47,087 bases of DNA. Origin: a virus. The DNA is taken from positions 1 to 47,087 of the IMG/VR virus record IMGVR_UViG_3300044691_000324; one strand, written 5' to 3'. Below, in pieces: positions 4,107 through 19,626 of the stretch (position 1 is its first letter; every line of letters begins with the position of its first letter). The position numbers were made by a program, and so were the translations under genes. The notes beneath the pieces were generated by a model. The model saw only the letters and a program-made list of their open reading frames with translations, had not been told where the DNA came from and searched no databases.

Positions 4107-5129
4107 ATGGAAACTGAAGAAAAAATAGAAACAGCAGTAGGAAAGCCCGTGAAGAAATATTATGCAACGGATGCGAACCTTCGTTTGCTTCGTGCGTGTG
4201 TTGCTACCAGTGCGGCTGCGCTCCTTATCGGGGAAACCGGAACCGGAAAGACAACGCTCGTGCGTGAGATAGCAGAAGAACACGGGAAGGAACTTATACG
4301 CATCTCGGTGAATGGGTCTATGGGTGTTGAAGAGATCCTCGGCAAATGGCTCGTGAACAAAGGTACGACCGTTTGGCAGGACGGACTTCTCACGGCTGCG
4401 CTTCGGGACGGCCACTGGGTCGTTATGGATGAAATCAACGCAGCCCTGCCGGAAATTCTGTTCGTGCTGCACTCCCTTTTGGATGATGACCGAAAGATAA
4501 TCTTGCCCGAAAAGGACAACGAAGTGATTCGTCCTCATAAGGAATTCCGCTTCTTTGCGACGATGAATCCACCGGAAGAATATGCCGGAACCAAAGATAT
4601 GAACAAGGCTCTCATGTCGCGCTTCACGGCAATCCTCCAGATAGATGTTCTCTCCGACACGGACGAGATGAACCTTCTTATGGATCGCGGTTCGGACAAG
4701 GACGTTGCCTACAAACTGGTTTCGCTTGCTCGCCGTCTGCGTATGCACAAGAGCAAAGATACAATCTTTTATTTCTGCTCGACGCGCGATTTGGTGCAGG
4801 TGAATGAATTGGTTCAGGGAGGCGTACCGTTGCTGGATGCGGTTCTGGGAGCCGTCGTTAATAAAATGTCTCCGAAGGAATACCAGCTCGTGCAGTCTGA
4901 CTTTTCTTCGACGGTTGGGTTGGTCTCTATGGTGTTCCCGTATGACAGCATCGAAGACCTCATGGGTGCGATAAAGAGGAAGGATGCAGATTTGGAAATG
5001 TTAAAAAAGTTCTACGAGGACAAACTGGTGCAGAAAGAAGAAGAGATACGCGCTTCGGTAGATAAGGAGTCTGGCGAGCGAGTACGCGACGAATTGCTTA
5101 AGAAAATCGCTGAACTGGCTAAGTCATAA
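4107..5129 (+). CDS. MoxR/CobS-type AAA+ ATPase
   Basis: 340 residues. Walker A GETGTGKT at 42-49, Walker B VVMDE at 105-109, sensor-1 ATMN at 151-154 and an arginine-finger-like SRF at 171-173. The short insert and the motif NPPEEYAGTKDM are typical of MoxR/CbbQ/CobS AAA+ proteins that remodel a protein partner, usually a VWA-domain protein. Such a partner lies two genes downstream (5449). The C-terminal 60 residues are a charged helix, possibly coiled coil. In phages, CobS/CobT-like pairs are known but their target is generally unclear. First gene of the operon from promoter B. Confidence 0.88.
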   Translation: METEEKIETAVGKPVKKYYATDANLRLLRACVATSAAALLIGETGTGKTTLVREIAEEHGKELIRISVNGSMGVEEILGKWLVNKGTTVWQDGLLTAALRDGHWVVMDEINAALPEILFVLHSLLDDDRKIILPEKDNEVIRPHKEFRFFATMNPPEEYAGTKDMNKALMSRFTAILQIDVLSDTDEMNLLMDRGSDKDVAYKLVSLARRLRMHKSKDTIFYFCSTRDLVQVNELVQGGVPLLDAVLGAVVNKMSPKEYQLVQSDFSSTVGLVSMVFPYDSIEDLMGAIKRKDADLEMLKKFYEDKLVQKEEEIRASVDKESGERVRDELLKKIAELAKS

Positions 5130-5134
5130 CCTCT

Positions 5135-5452
5135 ATGAAAATCACAATCGAATCAAATGCTATTTCAAAAATAGAGCCGACGAAAGTGAACGATTCTTCT
5201 GTCATGGAAGCGTCAATCCATATTCACGCTGAAGGCGCAGCAGAATACGGAAAGAACGCAGAAGCAGCTATCCTTGGAATCCTGATGAACGCATTTATGG
5301 CAGCTGCAGACAAATTCGTTAATAGCCATTCGTGCAAGAGCTGCACCACGTTCGTGATGTACAACTCTATGCTTCGGCACATGCAAACGATTCAGCGAGA
5401 GACCATGAAGCATATCGGCGAGGAAGAACTGTTGGATGCAACCCAGTCATGA
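5135..5452 (+). CDS. Hypothetical protein between the ATPase and VWA genes
   Basis: 105 residues, unrecognised. The N-terminal 60 residues read as beta-strands then an Ala-rich helix; a C-x2-C pair (CKSC) lies near residue 68. It ends in the overlap ATGA with the VWA gene, so it probably works with the MoxR-VWA pair. Confidence 0.65.
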   Translation: MKITIESNAISKIEPTKVNDSSVMEASIHIHAEGAAEYGKNAEAAILGILMNAFMAAADKFVNSHSCKSCTTFVMYNSMLRHMQTIQRETMKHIGEEELLDATQS

Positions 5453-6351
5453 ACGACGTAACTTTCGCAAAGATGCTTTCGTCCGTGATGCTTGATAACA
5501 AGTACGACCGGTTCGTGAAGAACCGCCGAACGGGGAAGCTCGACACGCGAAGCCTGTATAAGGTGAACACTTCATCGCGGCTCTTCAAGAAGCGCGAAGC
5601 TCGAAAGAACAAACACTACGCTGTTTCATTGGTTGTTGATTGCTCGGGTTCAATGAATGGGGAGCAGATCAAAATAGCAGCAAGTGCCGCGCAGAAACTC
5701 TCGCACCACCTTGCGGCTATGGATATTCCGCACAACATAATCTCATTCAATGCACACGCGAAAGAGATGAAGGTCTTCGGCCCGAAAGAACAGCTCGGTG
5801 TTGAAAAGGCAATTGTAAATAGTGTTTCTGGGACTGGAATTGTAAAGGAATACGAGTATATATTTTGGGACACCTCGAAGAAGATAAAATCAAAAGACGG
5901 GAAGCGTATGTTTTACCCGTTTGACACCATAACTGGTGGCGGTTTAACAGGTGCTAAAGAATACAAAAATGAGTCGAAAGGTGTCGGTTCGCTGTTTACT
6001 GTTCCGGCTCCTGCATACAACGCCGACGGCGAGGCTATTCGGTTTGCTCGGGAGAAACTTATGCGGCAAGAAGGAAAGCGTCTCATGATTCACCTTTCGG
6101 ACGGACAACCGGCAAATATGTACGATTCGTACGAGAGTGTTAATTATCCTGGCACGTGCAACGACGACTATGATCTGAAAAAAGAAGTCGAAATAACTCT
6201 TGCACAAGGAATAGAGCTGTATTCGATCGGGATACTTTCTTCTGCTGTTTCAAATTACTACCCACCGAAACGAACCGGAACTATAACGAAACTCGACCAG
6301 CTGTACCCGCACATTATTAAGCTGATTCGCATGAATCTTAAACGAGGATAA
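5449..6351 (+). CDS. VWA-domain protein, CobT-like partner of the MoxR ATPase
   Basis: 300 residues from the ATG that overlaps the previous stop; a longer reading frame opens upstream but would overlap the previous gene by 120 bases. The metal-ion adhesion site DCSGSMN is at 64-70 (D-x-S-x-S), and the strand/loop LMIHLSDGQPANM near 235-250 supplies the later MIDAS Asp. The layout is CobT-like: a basic N-terminal region (KNRRTGK, LFKKREARKNK) then the VWA fold. VWA proteins bind targets through the metal site while MoxR partners drive remodelling. The target is unknown; no cobalamin or porphyrin genes are present. Confidence 0.85.
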   Translation: MNDVTFAKMLSSVMLDNKYDRFVKNRRTGKLDTRSLYKVNTSSRLFKKREARKNKHYAVSLVVDCSGSMNGEQIKIAASAAQKLSHHLAAMDIPHNIISFNAHAKEMKVFGPKEQLGVEKAIVNSVSGTGIVKEYEYIFWDTSKKIKSKDGKRMFYPFDTITGGGLTGAKEYKNESKGVGSLFTVPAPAYNADGEAIRFAREKLMRQEGKRLMIHLSDGQPANMYDSYESVNYPGTCNDDYDLKKEVEITLAQGIELYSIGILSSAVSNYYPPKRTGTITKLDQLYPHIIKLIRMNLKRG

Positions 6352-7769: not shown

Positions 7770-8588
7770 ATGAAAAATACACACAACCAGAAGAAAGTAT
7801 CGGCCGGAGGTGAAGAGCAGAAGAAACAGCGAGAGGTTTTCAAGTTTGAAGGAGAAATGAACGGAAGCACGGAGAATCTTAAGAAATTCATAGACGTACT
7901 TCACGAGACCGACATCACAAACGATGAAGAAATGAGAAAGGCAATCGAACGAGCAGGGCTTAAGGGAAAGATTGTTCAGCGAAATAAGCACACACAACCA
8001 AGCGCAACATTCGGGGGAAAAAACGGAGACCTCGCCGATAAGCTGAAGGAAGCAATCGAAGAAAAGACGAAGGAACTTTCTGCCAAAAAAGAAAACAAAT
8101 TCTTTAGCATTAAAATGCGGAGTCCGTTCTTCTTGGCAATCCTTGTGACATTCATAGTTCTGCAACTCTCTCATGCGTACCAGTTTTCTGTTGCCGGAAA
8201 CTTTGACGCCTCTACTGAAGCAATAAGTTCAGCGACCTGGATCCTTCTCGTCGCTGTTATTGATTCTGCGTTCAATGCGTATATCGCTCTCACCAAACTG
8301 CGCCTGTCGGTTATGAAGAAACGCGGCCTTGATCTTGTGGGGACGTTGAAAGCGTCGATATTGGAAGCGCAGCGGGAGTTCGAAAAGTACGAGCGACTCA
8401 CCGACCAGCAGGCAAATTTGCAGAAGGCGATAATCAGCACGGAGCGTGCGCAAAAGGCTATTCTCCAATCAGAGCGCGACAAGGCAGTGCGTGAATTGGA
8501 AGCACTCAAGGCTATTGCCCAGAAGGTTGATGCGTTCAACAAAACCAAGCCAGCGCAGAAGAAGGCGAAAACAGTCGCAAAGAAATAG
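7770..8588 (+). CDS. Two-pass membrane protein with C-terminal coiled coil
   Basis: 272 residues. The N-terminal 110 residues are soluble and charged. Membrane segments lie at about 119-135 (PFFLAILVTFIVLQLSHAY) and 156-174 (TWILLVAVIDSAFNAYIAL). A coiled coil follows at about 195-255, ending in a Lys/Ala-rich basic tail. Both ends are therefore probably cytoplasmic with a short outer loop. A membrane anchor for phage replication or a host-envelope modifier are possible roles; neither is shown by the sequence. Confidence 0.7.
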   Translation: MKNTHNQKKVSAGGEEQKKQREVFKFEGEMNGSTENLKKFIDVLHETDITNDEEMRKAIERAGLKGKIVQRNKHTQPSATFGGKNGDLADKLKEAIEEKTKELSAKKENKFFSIKMRSPFFLAILVTFIVLQLSHAYQFSVAGNFDASTEAISSATWILLVAVIDSAFNAYIALTKLRLSVMKKRGLDLVGTLKASILEAQREFEKYERLTDQQANLQKAIISTERAQKAILQSERDKAVRELEALKAIAQKVDAFNKTKPAQKKAKTVAKK

Positions 8589-9281: not shown

Positions 9282-9533
9282 ATGGCAAACAGAAAACAAC
9301 GGGTCATTCTCCGATTCAAAGATGATTCATTTGAAGAGCAGCTCAAGAAACTTCTTCTTTCCTCGGGGAAAGTGAAGGTTGGCGGCGTTGGAATATTTGA
9401 GATCCGCGCAGTTTCGGAGCGCAAAGGCTACAACGTTTCAAACGGCGAGGAGATCGTTATACCCGCGCACAACAAAATGTTCTTCCGGCCCACAAAGAAG
9501 CTGAAGGATGCTATACAAGTCTATGGAGATTAA
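9282..9533 (+). CDS. HU/IHF-like DNA-binding protein with shortened N-terminus
   Basis: 83 residues. The segment GVGIFEIRAVSERKGYNV, then SNGEEIVIPAH, F-x-P and KKLKDAI reproduces the beta-arm and C-terminal helix consensus of HU/IHF proteins (GFGTFEVR...GRNP.TGE.I.IPA...F.P.K.LK). The N-terminal helical dimer part is only about 35 residues against about 45 in typical HU, so the dimer interface differs. Likely role: bending or packaging DNA, perhaps near the modification enzymes encoded next. Confidence 0.65.
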   Translation: MANRKQRVILRFKDDSFEEQLKKLLLSSGKVKVGGVGIFEIRAVSERKGYNVSNGEEIVIPAHNKMFFRPTKKLKDAIQVYGD

Positions 9534-10173
9534 AAACCTGAAGGCGTACCACAAGAACCCTCGGAAAATCACCAAGGAAGAGTTTGCGCTCCTAAGCGCT
9601 TCTCTGGTTGAATTTGGGGACTTGTCCGGTATCGTTCTCAATCGTGCCACAGGAGAGGTTATAGGGGGGAATCAGAGGACTCAGTTCTTCAAGCTCCACC
9701 CCGAAAAGGTAGAAATACACATAGAAAAAGAATTCCTCACGCCGACGGAAACAGGAACCGTTGCGCAGGGATACGTTACGTACCTTGGTGAGCAGTACAG
9801 CTACCGTGAAGTTCAGTGGGAAGCAGACAAATCAGAGCGTGCGAATATCCTTGCGAACAAAGCAGGAGGAACGTGGGACTTCGATATTCTTGCAAATGCC
9901 TTCGGGACAGACGTCCTCTTGGCTTCCGGCTGGAAAGACTTCGAAATCGGCTTCGCAACCACGCGAGATGAAGAAACCGCAGACACCGACGGACTCAAGG
10001 GCAGCATGGAAACGTACCTTGCTGGTGATGTGAAGAATATCGGTCTGTATTTCAGCAAAGAAGACTTCGATGAATTCATGACCAGACTGGACAGAGCTGC
10101 AACGCACTTCGGAACAACCAGCAACACCGAGACCGTGATTAAGCTTATGGAGTTCTACGAAGAAAACGCATGA
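9523..10173 (+). CDS. ParB-like (ParB/Srx fold) protein
   Basis: 216 residues from the ATG at 9523; an ATG at 9508 would add five residues. The first 90 residues carry the ParB/Srx N-terminal pattern: NLKAYHKNPRKI, then LSASLVEFGDLSGIVLNRATG and GGNQRTQFF (the GNxR phosphate-binding box). A second part (YSYREVQWEADKSERANILAN) resembles the segment that often links ParB-like domains to DNA methylases in phages, but no methylase domain follows. Its position directly before the dioxygenase and glycosyltransferase suggests it guides or regulates base modification. It overlaps the next gene by 4 bases (ATGA). Confidence 0.75.
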   Translation: MEIKNLKAYHKNPRKITKEEFALLSASLVEFGDLSGIVLNRATGEVIGGNQRTQFFKLHPEKVEIHIEKEFLTPTETGTVAQGYVTYLGEQYSYREVQWEADKSERANILANKAGGTWDFDILANAFGTDVLLASGWKDFEIGFATTRDEETADTDGLKGSMETYLAGDVKNIGLYFSKEDFDEFMTRLDRAATHFGTTSNTETVIKLMEFYEENA

Positions 10174-11051
10174 ACATAGTCCACGCAACAAAGCGCGACC
10201 TTGATTTGAAGGAATATATAAAGCGCTCTGCGAAGGAAACTGACTACGACACCCTGATTACAGAACCAACGATCCTCATGGTCGACGGGGAAATCAAAGT
10301 TGTGTACGACCATTTGAATTTCGACACGGGAAACATAGTAGAAGCATTGAAACGCGTGAAGTATGCGACGGGAAAGCGTAGTCGCGGTCTGGTCTCTACC
10401 AGCAGGATCCTCGGCTACCGCCCACGAAATGAAATGCGCCAGAACTACTGCTCAACAACCAGCCTTGCAGGAGAAGCACCAAGAGAGCACAAGATAGTCG
10501 CAGACTTTGCCTTGCAACTTGAACAGTTTTATAAGAAGCACAATCCGGAAGGATACCAGCGCCACAAAGAAACATCAGAGACTAAAATCCGAAAAGACTG
10601 GCGCATAGAGGGCGAAAGTATCTTCACCTCGGGAATCATAAACAAGAACAATCCCCTGAAGTATCACTTCGATACGGGGAATTTCACAGACGTGTATAGC
10701 ATCATGACGGTGTTTAAAGCAGGAATCGAAGGTGGATACCTTGCGCTTCCGGAGTATGGCATTGCGTTCGCGCTCCCCAATAATTCCGTGTTCATGTTCG
10801 ACGGGCAAGGAATCCTTCATGGCGTGACGCCAATCAAATACACCAGTCCGGCCGGATACCGATACTCGGTTGTGTACTACACATTGAAGCGCATGTGGCA
10901 GTGCTTGGAGATCAACGAAGAAATAGCGCGTGTGCGTAACGAGAAGACAATCAAAGAGCGCGTTCGTATGGAGAATCCTTTAACCGAGGAAGACCGGCTC
11001 TTGAAGGAGAAGAAGCGAGCAGAACTTACCGGACGAATCGGAAAGCAATAA
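10170..11051 (+). CDS. TET/JBP-family 2-oxoglutarate/Fe(II) dioxygenase
   Basis: 293 residues. The double-stranded beta-helix core is clear: IFTSGIINKNNPLKYHFDTG with the iron ligands H166-x-D168, then FKAGIEGGYLALPEYGI, VFMFDGQGILHGVTPI with the distal ligand H217, and GYRYSVVYYTLKRMWQC with R231 for 2-oxoglutarate. This order and the closing Y-x3-RMWQC fit the TET/JBP branch, which oxidises the methyl group of thymine (JBP, base J) or 5-methylcytosine (TET) in DNA. The next gene is a matching glycosyltransferase. No cytosine methyltransferase is seen, so either host 5mC or thymine is the substrate. Confidence 0.85.
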   Translation: MNIVHATKRDLDLKEYIKRSAKETDYDTLITEPTILMVDGEIKVVYDHLNFDTGNIVEALKRVKYATGKRSRGLVSTSRILGYRPRNEMRQNYCSTTSLAGEAPREHKIVADFALQLEQFYKKHNPEGYQRHKETSETKIRKDWRIEGESIFTSGIINKNNPLKYHFDTGNFTDVYSIMTVFKAGIEGGYLALPEYGIAFALPNNSVFMFDGQGILHGVTPIKYTSPAGYRYSVVYYTLKRMWQCLEINEEIARVRNEKTIKERVRMENPLTEEDRLLKEKKRAELTGRIGKQ

Positions 11052-11055
11052 CGCT

Positions 11056-11919
11056 ATGAAAGTCATAATCCTTTCGAAGGGCAGACCAGAGACTATCAGT
11101 ACGCACAAGCTTTTTGAACGAGAAGGACTGGACTATACGCTGGTTCTTCATACGGCAGGAGAACGCCAGAGCTACATAGACGCTGGGTTTGTTTCGCCGG
11201 AGAAAATAGTAGTCTCGAATGCTCCGTTCGGCGTTTCGCACCAGCGCCAGTGGATTCAGGATAATCTGATTCCCAAAGGAGACTGGTACATCTCTCTGGA
11301 CGACAACATACGCTCGTTCCAATGCGTCCCAGAGCCTCTGTACTCCCAGCACAGCCTTCCCGTGCAGGGTGGAGACAAGAAGGCCCAGATAGAGCTTAAG
11401 GATGCCTTTGAGACCGAATGCAGCACCAAGCGATTCTTGGAAGTGTGCGAGGGGATGCACGGGGTAGGCGAGAAGGAGAAAGCATACAATCTCGGGTTCG
11501 GAACCACACCGAACTTCTATTTCAGGGGAAAGAAATTCAGGTTTGTCGGGTACGTTATCTCGAAAGCGGTAATCAGGAAGAACCTCGGGATTCCGTTCGA
11601 ACTCACGAATCAAAGTATGGAGGACTATGCCTACACGGCAGAGAACCTTCTCAGGTACGGGAAAGTACTTATAAACAACTACTGCTTTCCGGTTGCTGGA
11701 CATTACGAGAAAGGCGGTATCGGTACGTACAAAGAACGCGCACCAGCAAAAGTGCGAGACAGTGCGTTCCTGATGCTGAAGTATCCGGGACTCTTCCGGT
11801 ACAAAGTGAAAAAAGGGTGCGATCCTAAAGCAGAGATACAGATACGTTTCACAACACTGAAGCAGGTTGAAATGTGGAGAGCACTGATGCGCAATAAGTA
11901 TGAAAAGAACACAGACTGA
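11056..11919 (+). CDS. TET-associated glycosyltransferase (TAGT-like)
   Basis: 287 residues. The N-terminus, KVIILSKGRPETISTHKLF, is a GT-A nucleotide-sugar fold start. The key acidic motif is WYISLDDNIRSF with D82-D83, where a divalent metal and the sugar nucleotide bind. The region VGYVISKAV...SMEDYAYTAENLLRYGK is the acceptor half, typical of the TAGT family described next to phage TET/JBP genes. It should add a sugar to the hydroxymethyl base made by the upstream dioxygenase. Four bases separate the two genes. The resulting DNA would resist host restriction. Confidence 0.8.
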   Translation: MKVIILSKGRPETISTHKLFEREGLDYTLVLHTAGERQSYIDAGFVSPEKIVVSNAPFGVSHQRQWIQDNLIPKGDWYISLDDNIRSFQCVPEPLYSQHSLPVQGGDKKAQIELKDAFETECSTKRFLEVCEGMHGVGEKEKAYNLGFGTTPNFYFRGKKFRFVGYVISKAVIRKNLGIPFELTNQSMEDYAYTAENLLRYGKVLINNYCFPVAGHYEKGGIGTYKERAPAKVRDSAFLMLKYPGLFRYKVKKGCDPKAEIQIRFTTLKQVEMWRALMRNKYEKNTD

Positions 11920-12348: not shown

Positions 12349-12951
12349 ATGAGTACCACTACGAGCATCGCAAAGAAGACTGCCAAAGCAATTAAAAAGC
12401 ATGGAGGGGGTGCGTTGGCCAAGATTAAAGAGAAGGAAGCGTACTTGATTTGGCGTTCTATTCCAGCATTACTCTCGCTTCTTCCGGAATCAGACCAGCG
12501 GAAAATGGGCTATGACGTAGACGATCCGCTATTCAAGCAACTCATAGGAATCAAGACCAAGGCAGAGTTCTGCGTTGCGTTGAAAGTATCTACCCGCATG
12601 CCGAGCGAATGGGAGAAAGACCCAGAGTTCTTAAGTACGGTGCGTCAACTGTCGCTGAACAATCACGTACTGCGATTCCAGAAAGACATAGACTTTTCGT
12701 TTACGCAGAAAGTCCTTAAGAACGGAGATGCGCAGCGTGTGAAACTTTGGAAGCAATTATACGAAGGCTGGACGGAAAAGACTGAAGTGAAGAACCTGAA
12801 CATTGAGGCCAGCGCAGCTGAACTTCAGGCATTCATAGAGCAGCGCAACAAAGAACTGTGGAGGCGCAACGATGAACTGAATATCATAGAAGACGAAGAA
12901 GAAGACCTTCAGGACATCGCCGACGAAGAAGATACGCTATCCCCAACATAG
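12349..12951 (+). CDS. Small terminase subunit (phBC6A51-type helix-turn-helix)
   Basis: 200 residues. The stretch KQLIGIKTKAEFCVALKVST is a helix-turn-helix of the kind found in phage small terminases; it is followed by DFSFTQKVLKNGDAQRVKLWKQLYEGW, the usual oligomerisation helices, and by a very acidic tail (IIEDEEEDLQDIADEEDTL). Small terminases recognise the phage packaging site and load the large subunit. The large subunit lies 2.9 kb further on, which is unusual. The stop codon falls inside promoter C. Confidence 0.7.
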   Translation: MSTTTSIAKKTAKAIKKHGGGALAKIKEKEAYLIWRSIPALLSLLPESDQRKMGYDVDDPLFKQLIGIKTKAEFCVALKVSTRMPSEWEKDPEFLSTVRQLSLNNHVLRFQKDIDFSFTQKVLKNGDAQRVKLWKQLYEGWTEKTEVKNLNIEASAAELQAFIEQRNKELWRRNDELNIIEDEEEDLQDIADEEDTLSPT

Positions 12952-13998: not shown

Positions 13999-14418
13999 AT
14001 GAAACTCTGGGTAGACGACATTCGGAACGCACCAGACGATAGCTGGACGGTAGCGCGTACCGTGACCAGCGCCATTCGTGCGATCGCTCGGTACGATTTC
14101 GACGAGATCTCTCTCGACCACGACATATCGCATCAGGTTACCGTTGGAGCGCTTGGTCGTCCGTATCCTTGCGAAGAAACATTCATGGCGGTTGCGTACT
14201 TCATCGCGCAGAAATACACCAAGAACATTCCGGCTGGATACACGCGCACGCACATCCCGCACGAGAGCTACCAGCAGAAGAAACCGAACATAACCATACA
14301 TAGCAGCAACACGGTCGCCGGAGAGGAAATGAAAAAGGTTCTGCATGATGCAGGATTCTCGCAAATAGATCATGTCCCAATGGGGCTGGCAAACAGGCTG
14401 GAAATGGAACTTCCGTAG
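13999..14418 (+). CDS. Cyclic-phosphate-processing receiver-like (cPPR) protein
   Basis: 139 residues from the ATG at 13999; the reading frame is open further upstream but would overlap two genes. The start KLWVDDIRNAP and the later DEISLDHDIS (LDHD at 39-42) match the receiver-like cPPR domain, in which the two acidic clusters form the active site. That family has been proposed to process cyclic phosphates at RNA ends or tRNA-splicing-type products. In a phage it may act on RNA damaged by host defence. The catalytic role is inference. Confidence 0.65.
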   Translation: MKLWVDDIRNAPDDSWTVARTVTSAIRAIARYDFDEISLDHDISHQVTVGALGRPYPCEETFMAVAYFIAQKYTKNIPAGYTRTHIPHESYQQKKPNITIHSSNTVAGEEMKKVLHDAGFSQIDHVPMGLANRLEMELP

Positions 14419-15504: not shown

Positions 15505-15838
15505 GGGCTAGCTAGGTTTTGACGGATTTGTACCTTGTGAGATGCATAGCTGCTAAGGCCACATCAAAGTGTTGTGGCAACCAATACATGCAAAGAGCAT
15601 TCTCTCTCCGTTCTTCGCTACGGTTGAATCCCTCGGGACTCTTTCTTTCGCCTAGATAATCGGTGTCTTGCGATAAGATTATGCTGGTAATCGTAAGGCA
15701 TACCCACAAGCATATGGTGGAGGTGTCATACACCCTGGTGCCACAGGTAAACGAGCTGAAGCGGTACTTCAGATATGCTATGTAGAGTTCTTACAAGGTT
15801 CTTGTTCGGACGGCGGTTCGATTCCGCCCTAGTCCACC
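15505..15838 (+). ncRNA. ssrA: Transfer-messenger RNA (tmRNA)
   Basis: tmRNA rescues stalled ribosomes, acting first as alanyl-tRNA and then as mRNA for a degradation tag. Acceptor stem: GGGCTAG (15505-15511) pairs with CTAGTCC (15829-15835), with G15507 opposite U15833, the G3-U70 alanine identity pair. The D-loop motif GGTTTTGACGG (15515-15525) matches the conserved GGNTTCGAC block. T-arm: GGCGG/TTCGATT/CCGCC (15812-15828). Before it, ATGTAG...GGTTCTTGTTCGGAC matches the usual tmRNA 3' half. A helix GCCAC/GTGGC (15558-15562/15574-15578) is placed like pseudoknot 1. AATACAT before GCA (15590) matches the AATAGTC-GCA resume region. The tag frame is 15590-15655: 21 residues, beginning AKSIL and ending GTLSFA, then TAG-A-TAA. 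The final A of CCA is not encoded. Confidence 0.88.
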
Positions 15839-15845
15839 TTTTTAA

Positions 15846-17471
15846 ATGCACTATCCAACCATTGCCAGCAGAGGAGGCGTGTTCGCCGACAAAGAATGGC
15901 GCATGGACCATTTGTACGCGATCAAAACCAAACGCAAACGCCTCGAGCCGATGCGATTAAACGATGCGCAGCGCGATTACCTGAAGCGCCGACGCATGTT
16001 CAACTTCGTTTTAAAGGCTCGCCAGCTCGGATTCTCTACGTTCTGCTTGCTGGATATGCTGGACGATACGATCAATACGCCAAACATGAACTCCGCTATC
16101 GTTGCGCACGAGAAGCAGAAGGTTGTGAAGCTTTTCGAGATCATCAAGCGCGGATTCGAGAACATTCCCGAACACATGCGCCCGAGAGTTTCCATTGAGA
16201 ACCGCAACGAGCTGTACTTTCCCGATCTGGATAGCAAGATATTCGTCACCGTGGATACGCGCGGCGAAACCGTCCACAATCTTCACGTTTCCGAGCTTGC
16301 CTTCATTTCCCACGCAGACGAAAAGCTTGCAGCAACGCTAGAGTCCGTACCAAAGAACGGCAAGATAACGTTTGAGACAACCGCAAACGGTATGGTTGGC
16401 TATGCCTTCGACGAGTGGGTGTCTGATGAATTCGAAGGGAAGAAGTTCTTTTATAACTGGATGTGGGATCCGCAGTACAGATTAAAGACCAGCAAAACGA
16501 TAGAAGAGCTTAAGGAAGAGTACCGACCGTTGGCGCTTCGCTATGGCTGTATGCTCGACCTCGCCGATAGGTTCAAACTGGATGCAGAGCAATTGGCGTT
16601 CTATCTTGCGAAAATGCGCCGACACAAGGAACTGGTCGTGCAGGAATATCCAACCACAGACCTTGAGGCATTTCTCTCCTCGGGACGGTCTATCTTTCAT
16701 GCGCAGGACATCGCCAAGCACCACCCAGCGCCGCCCGTGGAGCGCAAATGGGGGGATCTGCTCGTCTACGAACCGCCGTTGCTTGGCTTTAATTACACGG
16801 TAGGGGTAGATACCTCAGAAGGAGGAGGCGGAGACAACGCAACGATCTGCGTACTGAATGTGCAGACTGGCGTGCAGGTTGCCGAATATGCGAATCCGAA
16901 CATTCAACCGGCAGATTTGGGGAAACTCGCAATCGAAGTGTGCAAATGGTACAACCGTGCGCTCATGGTTCCGGAAATCAACAACACCGGAATCGCCTTC
17001 ATGGACTACGTGAAAACGAAGTACGGGAATATATATAAGCGTGAAGTGATTGACAAGCGAAGCCGCGAGACAACAGAAGCCCTTGGGTGGCGCACAACGG
17101 CAGTGACGAAGCCGCGTCTGGTGTTCGCCCTCGAAGAGGCAGTGCGCGACGAAGCCATAAACATCAGAAGCGCAGAGCTTTTAAAAGAACTCCGTACGTT
17201 CGTGAAGCCAGAGGACAGCTCGAAGCATGGCTACGGCGCAGAAGGAACGAACCACGACGACCGTGTGATTGCTATCGGGCTTGCCTTGCAAGGTCTCAAG
17301 TTCACGCAGCGAACGAAGAAGCCAGAGAACGTCGCGGAGAAGCGATTGAAAGAATACATTGCCGGAAAATCGCTCGATACCTACTTCGGAACGGAGAAGC
17401 CCTTCGGCTTGACGAACGCAGACCGACGCAAGCGATACAGCATACGAAGTAATCCACAGTCCACAGAATAG
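15846..17471 (+). CDS. terL: Large terminase subunit
   Basis: 541 residues; the packaging motor ATPase and nuclease. The ATPase has the phage-type Walker A KARQLGFST at 57-65, Walker B-like VSELAF at 148-153 and the coupling motif FETTANG at about 176-182. The nuclease has its first Asp in TVGVDTSEGG (D322), a middle acidic residue in PEINN (376-380), and NHDD at 469-472. The ATG is 8 bases after the tmRNA, with no ribosome-binding site, so the messenger probably comes from the tmRNA transcript; 3' cutting of the tmRNA would leave an almost leaderless terminase mRNA. An ATG at 15903 is a possible later start. Confidence 0.92.
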   Translation: MHYPTIASRGGVFADKEWRMDHLYAIKTKRKRLEPMRLNDAQRDYLKRRRMFNFVLKARQLGFSTFCLLDMLDDTINTPNMNSAIVAHEKQKVVKLFEIIKRGFENIPEHMRPRVSIENRNELYFPDLDSKIFVTVDTRGETVHNLHVSELAFISHADEKLAATLESVPKNGKITFETTANGMVGYAFDEWVSDEFEGKKFFYNWMWDPQYRLKTSKTIEELKEEYRPLALRYGCMLDLADRFKLDAEQLAFYLAKMRRHKELVVQEYPTTDLEAFLSSGRSIFHAQDIAKHHPAPPVERKWGDLLVYEPPLLGFNYTVGVDTSEGGGGDNATICVLNVQTGVQVAEYANPNIQPADLGKLAIEVCKWYNRALMVPEINNTGIAFMDYVKTKYGNIYKREVIDKRSRETTEALGWRTTAVTKPRLVFALEEAVRDEAINIRSAELLKELRTFVKPEDSSKHGYGAEGTNHDDRVIAIGLALQGLKFTQRTKKPENVAEKRLKEYIAGKSLDTYFGTEKPFGLTNADRRKRYSIRSNPQSTE

Positions 17472-17538: not shown

Positions 17539-19626
17539 ATGGCATTACCACAAGCTACACAGGGATTGAAACCGGATGCAAAAGAAAAGACCACGAAAGG
17601 TGGGTACGTTCCAAAAGGTGCAGAAAAGAAAGTATGGGATCAGTTCCTTCGCCGAAAGAGCGAGCTTCTCATGTCCCGTACGAATGTGCTGGGCCAGAAC
17701 ATCGACATGCAGATGCGCAAATGGGATAAGAACTACTTCAACAGGGATGCAGAGATTCCCGCAAGCGAGCTGGACCCGAACCAGAAGCCGATAGCAATCA
17801 ACAACGCCTTCGGAAAGGTTCAGGCTGCGCTTGGAATCATGATTGACCGCAACCCAGAGATCACCCTGAACGAGACGAACCCGAAATATTCAGCAACACG
17901 CGAACTCATGCGTGGACTTGCAACATACAGTTGGCAGAACACGAACTCGCTCGGGCAGCTTAAGTTGTCTATTTTTAATTGCGCAAAGCGTGGGTGGTTC
18001 GTCGGGAGAACCTACAACCGTGTGATTAAGCACAAGGCACGCTTTTTGGAGCAAGTCGGCGACGACGGCAAAGAAAAGTACGTTGAGCGTGAAGTGACCA
18101 AAATGGATGATATTCAGTACCAAAACCTGAATAACTACAACGCATGGATCGACGAGCAAGCAATGCCGGACGATATGTTCAGCGTACGCGACTGGATGTG
18201 GCGCGAAGTGTGGCACATTGACGACGTTAAGCGTCTGTTCCCGAAGGAAGACTATCCAAACATGGAGTATGTGGTTGCTGGTGGCGATACGCAGGAAATC
18301 ATAGGAGGACTCTCCGCGATCAGTACGTCGACGGCAAGCTCCGGAAATCAGGCAAAAGTCACCAAGAAAGGCATGACAGAGATCTTCTTCTACGAGAATC
18401 AGTACGATGACTGGCTTATCGTTGAGATTAACGGCGTCATGGTTGGCTGGATGCCATTGCCGCAGAACAGCAAGCGTCTCTCTCTGGTCACGGGGTACTG
18501 GAACATGCGCAGCGCAGAGACTATCTACGGAATCGGCGTCGTCGAGGAAATGGAGAAGAACGAGCAGGTCATCGACCGAATCCTGAACATGACACTCCGC
18601 CAGCTCTTGCTCACTATCACGCCTCCTGGCTTCTACACAGGCGCAGAGGACCCCGAGGACGACAACCTCCGCTACACTCCTGGAGTCCTTCGTCGTGTAC
18701 TCGATCCGAAGAGTATCGTTTGGGCTGAAATCCCTCCTGGAAACCAGCAAGGCCAAGAATGGATCTCGTGGCTTGAAGGCAAACAAGACCAGATGACGGG
18801 AATTACGGGAACAATCGAAGGCGAACAAAGCCAAGAAGGCCAGAATCCAACCGCCTTCGAACTCGGCGTGAACCGTGAAGCTGGACTGAAACGCCTTCGT
18901 TTGCCGTTGAAATCTATCCAGTACGCACTTGAGTGGGAATTCAACAACCGAATCGCGCTGATTCAGCAGGTGTATTCAGACTTTGACGTCGAGCACCTCG
19001 AAAGCGACGAAGATATATTCGCGTACCTTGACGAGACACAAGCAGACCCAGACTTCTACTTCATCGAGAACGAAGGCAAAGGAGAGAAAGAGAAGTTCTA
19101 TAAAAAGAATTTCCGCGAAGTTCAGCTCAACTTGTCGCAGGACGACGCCGGAAACTTCACCGAGGCAGACAACAAAAAGTTCTTCAAGATCAAGCCGCAG
19201 TACCTTGCCTTCGAAGGAACCTGTACGGTTGACGTCGGTTCTATCCTCGTGCAGAGCGAAGAACTGGAACAAGCAGACACACTGCGCCTCGCAAACATCG
19301 TGATTCCCCTTCTCACCACGGCAGACCCGAACGTCGTCGGAAAACCAGTGAAGCAGTTGTTCTTGGCGTTCAACAAAGACCCGAAGAAATGGCTACCGGA
19401 CAAATGGGTGCAGGTACTCGAAAGCCCAGAGGCCGCACAAGGCGCAAAACAGACCCCTGCGGCTCCCGCTGCCCCTGCACCTTCCCAATCCCTCACTCCT
19501 CCTGCTCCTGGCTCCCAGAGCCTCGATACGGTGGTTCCGCCAAGCCAGCTCGAAAGTACGCCGAACGGATCCAGCGCACTCGCAGCCTTTTCGGGAACGA
19601 ACACAGGAAGCAATCCAAGCGCATAA
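17539..19626 (+). CDS. Portal protein, P22-like
   Basis: 695 residues, the size of P22-type portals. Characteristic parts: KPIAINNAFGKVQAALGIM and DRNPEITLNETNPKY early on, the long wing region with GWFVGRTYNRVIK, then GVVEEMEKNEQVIDRILNM (crown/stem helices) and QSQEGQNPTAFELGVNREAG. The last 75 residues are Ala/Pro/Gln low complexity (PAAPAAPAPSQSL) and probably disordered. The portal is the 12-subunit DNA gate at one head vertex, docked by the terminase during packaging and by the tail adaptor afterwards. A P22-type portal implies a short-tailed virion. Confidence 0.9.
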   Translation: MALPQATQGLKPDAKEKTTKGGYVPKGAEKKVWDQFLRRKSELLMSRTNVLGQNIDMQMRKWDKNYFNRDAEIPASELDPNQKPIAINNAFGKVQAALGIMIDRNPEITLNETNPKYSATRELMRGLATYSWQNTNSLGQLKLSIFNCAKRGWFVGRTYNRVIKHKARFLEQVGDDGKEKYVEREVTKMDDIQYQNLNNYNAWIDEQAMPDDMFSVRDWMWREVWHIDDVKRLFPKEDYPNMEYVVAGGDTQEIIGGLSAISTSTASSGNQAKVTKKGMTEIFFYENQYDDWLIVEINGVMVGWMPLPQNSKRLSLVTGYWNMRSAETIYGIGVVEEMEKNEQVIDRILNMTLRQLLLTITPPGFYTGAEDPEDDNLRYTPGVLRRVLDPKSIVWAEIPPGNQQGQEWISWLEGKQDQMTGITGTIEGEQSQEGQNPTAFELGVNREAGLKRLRLPLKSIQYALEWEFNNRIALIQQVYSDFDVEHLESDEDIFAYLDETQADPDFYFIENEGKGEKEKFYKKNFREVQLNLSQDDAGNFTEADNKKFFKIKPQYLAFEGTCTVDVGSILVQSEELEQADTLRLANIVIPLLTTADPNVVGKPVKQLFLAFNKDPKKWLPDKWVQVLESPEAAQGAKQTPAAPAAPAPSQSLTPPAPGSQSLDTVVPPSQLESTPNGSSALAAFSGTNTGSNPSA

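Follow-up and report, generated by a model that had tools for sequence, protein, structure and literature searches.

Phage-encoded tmRNAs and the terL-adjacent gene

Phage tmRNAs are uncommon and established, having been recorded in 402 of 18,146 phage genomes (PMC9004378). Complete tmRNAs are carried by mycobacteriophages Bxz1 and Wildcat and by Bacillus phage G (PMC4131195), while tmRNA is also encoded by Bradyrhizobium elkanii phages of about 63 kb, which possess no annotated lysogeny genes (PMC12656738), and by huge phages, some of which additionally specify SmpB (PMC7162821). The DNA analyzed in this study, hereafter the window, is the entire 47,087-nt stretch of the IMG/VR virus contig IMGVR_UViG_3300044691_000324; as this contig carries a direct terminal repeat of 127 bp, the 47-kb phage genome is probably complete. 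In common with the phage tmRNAs described above, the tmRNA (ssrA) gene of the window is a complete gene on a phage, from which it differs in the host phyla concerned and, in comparison with some of the huge phages (PMC7162821), in that no SmpB gene was found in the window phage. The ssrA gene of Methylophilales phage Melnitz (PMC9004378) is comparable in that it represents a tmRNA of bacterial descent in a phage of an uncultivated-type host group, with no integrase found; it differs in being a two-piece, permuted tmRNA which is located behind a glutamine riboswitch in a genome of 141.5 kb. The window gene, in contrast, has the standard one-piece arrangement rather than the two-piece (permuted) one. 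No report of a tmRNA in phages of Patescibacteria was found in the open-access literature, and the present locus extends an already known class of phage gene to what are probably phages of Patescibacteria, hosts with very reduced genomes.

Architecture of the window tmRNA

The first-pass annotation had proposed that the window encodes a complete tmRNA next to the large terminase gene, and this was borne out by both of the programs applied. ARAGORN calls exactly one tmRNA, at positions 15505 to 15838 on the plus strand, with the tag AKSILSPFFATVESLGTLSFA preceding a stop codon, and the Rfam tmRNA model RF00023 (gathering cut-off, 47 bits) matches positions 15505 to 15839 from end to end (model positions 1 to 374, 64.8 bits, E = 3.9e-23), being the sole Rfam family matched in the window. 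The score is modest, and the sampled tmRNAs of Patescibacteria mostly score higher. Directly downstream lies terL (15846 to 17471, plus strand), whose product was identified as the terminase large subunit by PF17289 and phrog_2.

The individual parts that had been reported can be read from the sequence. The acceptor stem comprises 7 bp, with GGGCUAG (15505 to 15511, plus strand), which harbors G3 of the alanine identity pair, being paired to CUAGUCC (15829 to 15835) so as to include the G3-U70 wobble. The conserved D-loop motif, GGUUUUGACGG, is present, as is the T-arm, GGCGG-UUCGAUU-CCGCC, which together with the acceptor 3' strand CUAGUCC, an A and an encoded CC occupies positions 15812 to 15838 (plus strand). 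The resume region, CCAAUACAU and then GCA, leads into a tag of 21 codons whose frame, inclusive of its TAG stop, extends from 15590 to 15655 (plus strand) and ends in ...SFA-TAG; the TAA that had been taken for a second stop after this TAG does not lie in the same frame (TAG ATA ATC). As in the bacterial one-piece tmRNA represented by RF00023, a tRNA-like domain with G3-U70 and GGxUUxGACxG, a tag frame after the resume site, a long P2 and a post-tag pseudoknot are present, whereas the window RNA is short (334 nt against a host-order median of 395), contains a hairpin in place of PK1 and specifies a tag tail which differs from those of hosts.

The MFE fold of the window tmRNA beats 99 of 100 shuffles (z = -2.1). 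A pseudoknot-compatible fold, upon which the earlier reading had been made dependent, is indeed available: an H-type pseudoknot of 15 bp in all follows the tag at positions 15665 to 15714 (plus strand; gene positions 161 to 210) and is composed of S1 (GUCUUGCGA/UCGUAAGGC) and S2 (UAUGCU/AGCAUA), equally good pseudoknots being obtained in 26 of 500 shuffles when this element is considered by itself. Pseudoknots with quite different sequences are located at the same position in the related phage contigs L011, L012, L025, L396 and L398 (see below) and in host tmRNAs. PK1 is clear in L011, L012, L025 and the hosts; no canonical PK1 is evident in the window tmRNA, in which the expected site (15558 to 15578, plus strand) is occupied by a stable 6-bp hairpin, GCCACA/UGUGGC. 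This hairpin is kept in L396 by means of two compensatory changes (stem GCGACC/GGUCGC), and helices covary among the tmRNAs of the window, L396 and L398. In E. coli tmRNA, a stable hairpin can substitute for PK1.

Distribution of related tmRNAs among phages

A clade of related phages was gathered from IMG/VR by searching for relatives of the portal, TerL and TerS-like proteins. In total, eight distinct phage tmRNAs with SP[YF] tags were found, that of the window included. Six of these belong to a single terminase clade, in which each is located upstream of terL, either immediately or at the distance of a single small ORF, this order being common to L002, L011, L012, L025 and L256; the remaining two, L396 and L398, are close homologues of the window tmRNA in other phage backgrounds. 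The tmRNAs of L012, L025 (= L026) and L256 are detected by ARAGORN, while those of L011, with an Rfam score of 81.9 bits, and L002 are missed by this program and were identified by reading the sequence. Across the terminase clade, all acceptor stems are intact with G3-U70, most pairs being strongly diverged, and all members retain an open SP[YF] tag frame, a stop and a final Ala. The tmRNA-like gene of L002 (2115 to 2480) combines an intact acceptor and an SP[YF] tag with a non-canonical T-loop (GGCAGTG) and an altered D-loop motif, and it scores under the Rfam threshold; in view of this T-loop, some copies need not be functional.

In the TerL tree, every carrier of a terL-adjacent tmRNA falls within one clade (support, 98/99). 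For L010, L022, L009, L255 and the MAG contig L032, all of the same clade, no tmRNA could be located beside terL, and the gene is thus dispensable. A single gain plus losses across the clade would be the simplest reading of this distribution; alternatively, several independent gains may have taken place. At the tmRNA slot of L010 (approximately 8130 to 8230) and L022 (approximately 2670 to 2770), an element of approximately 90 nt has, by eye, the look of a pseudoknotted hairpin, for which no Rfam match was obtained.

Homologues of the window tmRNA occur in contigs of 39.0, 45.0 and 46.3 kb. That of L396 (39.0 kb) is homologous over the full length of the window tmRNA, with 63% identity and a score of 102 bits (best host match, 48 bits), and neither a portal nor a TerL match was found in this contig. 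The L398 tmRNA (46.3-kb contig), which is located in a Gln-Met-tmRNA-Asn-Trp cluster, is likewise homologous over the full length in a three-way alignment with L396, and the TerL of L398 is only 33% identical to that of the window. The gene has, therefore, probably been transferred between phages. A blastn search with the window tmRNA against 50,697 phage records returned no match, the relatives returned by tblastn of the window TerL against 50,697 phage records were all below 60% identity (the best near 31%), a scan with a generic tmRNA pattern yielded no hits and a MAFFT identity ranking of phage and host tmRNAs was uninformative.

The SP[YF] tag head and the probable host

The window tag, of 21 residues, had been described as longer than that of E. 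coli and as ending in FA rather than LAA, in the manner of mycoplasma-type tags. The comparison with mycoplasma cannot be upheld, as the tag carries the SP[YF] motif of one order of Patescibacteria (Parcubacteria), and its length and final A are ordinary among 73 tags surveyed from this likely host order, which have a median of 23 aa and of which 71 end in A and 7 in FA. One of two indications of the host is provided by the portal protein (17539 to 19626, plus strand; weak SU10_portal match, under the curated cut-off), for which L032 (64% identity) represents the sole relative among 84,980 GTDB species genomes. This contig is binned in a Candidatus Parcubacteria MAG; it is possibly mis-binned, and the isolate is named 'viral-cat'. 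The same MAG harbors an ssrA gene of its own after smpB, with the tag AKSTFAFVSPFHTADEFQFAYARA. Among tags called by ARAGORN, SP[YF] is present in 57 of the 73 sampled chromosomal tags of the order to which the MAG belongs, as opposed to 1 of 82 distinct tags in a class-wide sample and 1 of 29 in the phylum sample, and it is present in all eight phage tags. Based on the SP[YF] tag type and on the portal relative in a Parcubacteria MAG, that is, on one MAG contig and a tag motif, the window phage probably infects Parcubacteria. Tag motifs can, therefore, point to the host of a phage even where DNA similarity fails, and the survey exposes an as yet unexplained SP[YF] motif that runs through the host tags of a whole order.

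The serine codon of the motif belongs to the UCN family in some phages and to AGY in others, from which it follows that the peptide, and not the RNA letters, is conserved; sequence comparison thus indicates that the SP[YF] tag peptide is under selection. The AK..SP[YF] tag head is shared with chromosomal ssrA genes of the Parcubacteria order (L033, L150), and the window tag matches eight of the nine residues of AKSILSPYF, a segment internal to the L150 tag. These chromosomal genes differ from that of the window in the acceptor (GGGGAUG/GGGGGUG in hosts, GGGCUAG in the window) and in the tag tail (A-[FYP]-A-x-A in hosts, polar in the window), and DNA similarity is confined to the 3' end. A recent copy of a sampled host ssrA was rejected, as a search of 400 genomes with the window tmRNA gave short matches, nearly all of them in the 3' T-arm region. 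Two full-length tmRNA matches per assembly were observed in some Patescibacteria, namely G752 (contigs C16 and C13), G186 (C3 and C97) and G127 (C6 and C16), the second copy of which is possibly of phage or mobile origin.

Proposed function and divergence of the tag tail

We consider it likely that the window gene specifies a functional, phage-borne tmRNA which performs ordinary trans-translation inside a Parcubacteria host. The sequence support for this proposal consists of the complete tRNA-like domain, the tag frame, the post-tag pseudoknot, conservation at the terL side and the tag motif of the host order. As neither SmpB nor a tyrosine integrase was found in the phage, the RNA most likely works with host factors: the phage would supply the tmRNA, and the host would supply AlaRS, EF-Tu, SmpB and proteases. 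The phage tmRNA would then free ribosomes that have become stuck on broken mRNAs or on those lacking a stop codon, appending the phage tag, and ribosome recycling would probably be sustained as host transcription drops and nonstop mRNAs build up. We infer that the gene is expressed and that its RNA is charged with alanine and bound by SmpB; the timing and the benefit to the phage are inferred likewise. Recycling of host ribosomes and redirection of tagged proteins had both been suggested as roles in the first-pass annotation, and the latter may still apply because the tag tails diverge from those of the host.

This divergence is pronounced. Among host SP[YF] tags (n = 65), position -6 is nonpolar in 64, and Ala is found at -5 in 57, at -3 in 58 and at -1 in 62; the window tail, GTLSFA, retains the last A alone of this pattern. 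Positions -5 and -6 are both polar in seven of the eight phage tags against one of the 65 host tags (Fisher, 4e-8, uncorrected for kinship, the phage tags not being independent samples and the host tags being those of the order rather than of the exact hosts). Ala at -5 occurs in a single phage tag, whereas Ala at -3 is present in four and a final Ala in all eight. Polar tails are borne by four lines of the terminase clade (the window, L002, L011 and L012/L025/L256) as well as by L396, while the tail of L398 is host-like (...TPAFARA), the window frame ending two codons sooner. The polar-tail pattern is, therefore, strong and not universal, a universal tail change being ruled out by L398. The exchange of alanine and aromatic residues for polar ones in phage tags is a new and unexpected finding.

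It is possible, although on balance we think it unlikely, that the degron has been rewritten, in which case ribosomes would be freed normally while the tagged proteins, having a tail without the host F-A-[FYP]-A-x-A, would be degraded poorly or by another protease, so that useful fragments would survive or the load on host proteases would be eased. The polarity at -5/-6, the scarcity of Ala at -5, the recurrence of polar tails in four clade lines and L396, and the retention of the SP[YF] head and final Ala beside an altered tail are consistent with such a change. It is opposed by L398, a close homologue of the window tmRNA which retains the host-like AFARA tail, by the persistence of the final A and, in half of the phage tags, of Ala at -3, and by the non-independent, order-level nature of the comparison. 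In E. coli, ClpXP recognition is dominated by the last tag residues. A wider proposal, to which we attach rather little confidence, is that Parcubacteria phages share an exchangeable tmRNA lineage in which the SP[YF] head has been kept and the host degradation tail repeatedly lost, rescue thereby being uncoupled from host proteolysis during infection; the head would then perhaps constitute an adaptor or handling signal. The kept head and divergent tail allow a direct test of whether, in phages, the rescue of ribosomes has been separated from the destruction of proteins.

The proposed trans-translation function would not apply if the gene were a passenger without function or a host ssrA copy in decay, which we regard as very unlikely: the modest Rfam score (64.8), the abnormal T-loop of L002 and the sister phages without the gene at the terL site would fit such a scenario, but acceptor, tag frame, stop and pseudoknot are intact across highly diverged copies, and both helix covariation and serine codon-family switching argue against decay. 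It is highly improbable that the RNA is a decoy which, without any tagging, sequesters host SmpB or impedes trans-translation by the host; a form close to TLD only is known in mycobacteriophage DS6A, and a molecule resembling it acts as an inhibitor of tmRNA (PMC4131195), yet the window gene retains an mRNA-like half, a tag and a downstream pseudoknot, none of which a decoy would need. Although ssrA is often an attachment site in bacteria (PMC9004378, PMC12656738), the notion that part of a host ssrA was retained as attP by a temperate phage is largely refuted and barely credible, given that the gene is complete, that the window has no PF00589 tyrosine integrase match, that the gene lies upstream of terL in every clade member carrying a tmRNA and that the 400-genome search gave only the short matches noted above.

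Genes surrounding the tmRNA

Upstream of the tmRNA, the window encodes a terminase-small-subunit-like protein (12349 to 12951, plus strand), which was assigned by position and has homologues in L010, L011, L025, L255 and L256, being conserved upstream in the clade; it has no match in Pfam or PHROG. Between this gene and the tmRNA lies a gene for a cREC_REC (cyclic-phosphate processing receiver domain) protein (13999 to 14418, plus strand; PF20274, 69.3 bits). A cREC_REC gene is located upstream of the tmRNA in three tmRNA carriers, namely the window, L256 (3407 to 3802) and L002 (1116 to 1625), with no match in the tmRNA-less relatives L009, L010 and L022, and the predicted role of such proteins in cyclic-phosphate RNA-end processing makes an RNA-repair link possible.

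A sigma-70 consensus scan returned no promoter for the window tmRNA gene. Its 3' end is followed after 7 nt by the ATG of terL (15838 to 15846), beyond which the portal gene is situated; the corresponding distance is 4 nt in L256 (4281 to 4286) and about 15 nt in L012 (1792 to 1808). Gaps of this size can scarcely, if at all, accommodate a ribosome-binding site, and 3' processing of the tmRNA could yield a nearly leaderless terL mRNA.

Elsewhere in the window, a TET/JBP-family oxygenase (PF12851; 10170 to 11051) lies ahead of a TET-associated glycosyltransferase-like protein (PF20691, under the cut-off; 11056 to 11919), and this pair is adjoined by a ParB/methyltransferase-like gene (9508 to 10173), the group as a whole (9508 to 11919) likely representing a DNA hypermodification module. 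The phage also specifies a MoxR-VWA-like pair, consisting of an AAA (CbbQ/MoxR-like) ATPase (4107 to 5129) and a CobT/VWA-domain protein (5332 to 6351).
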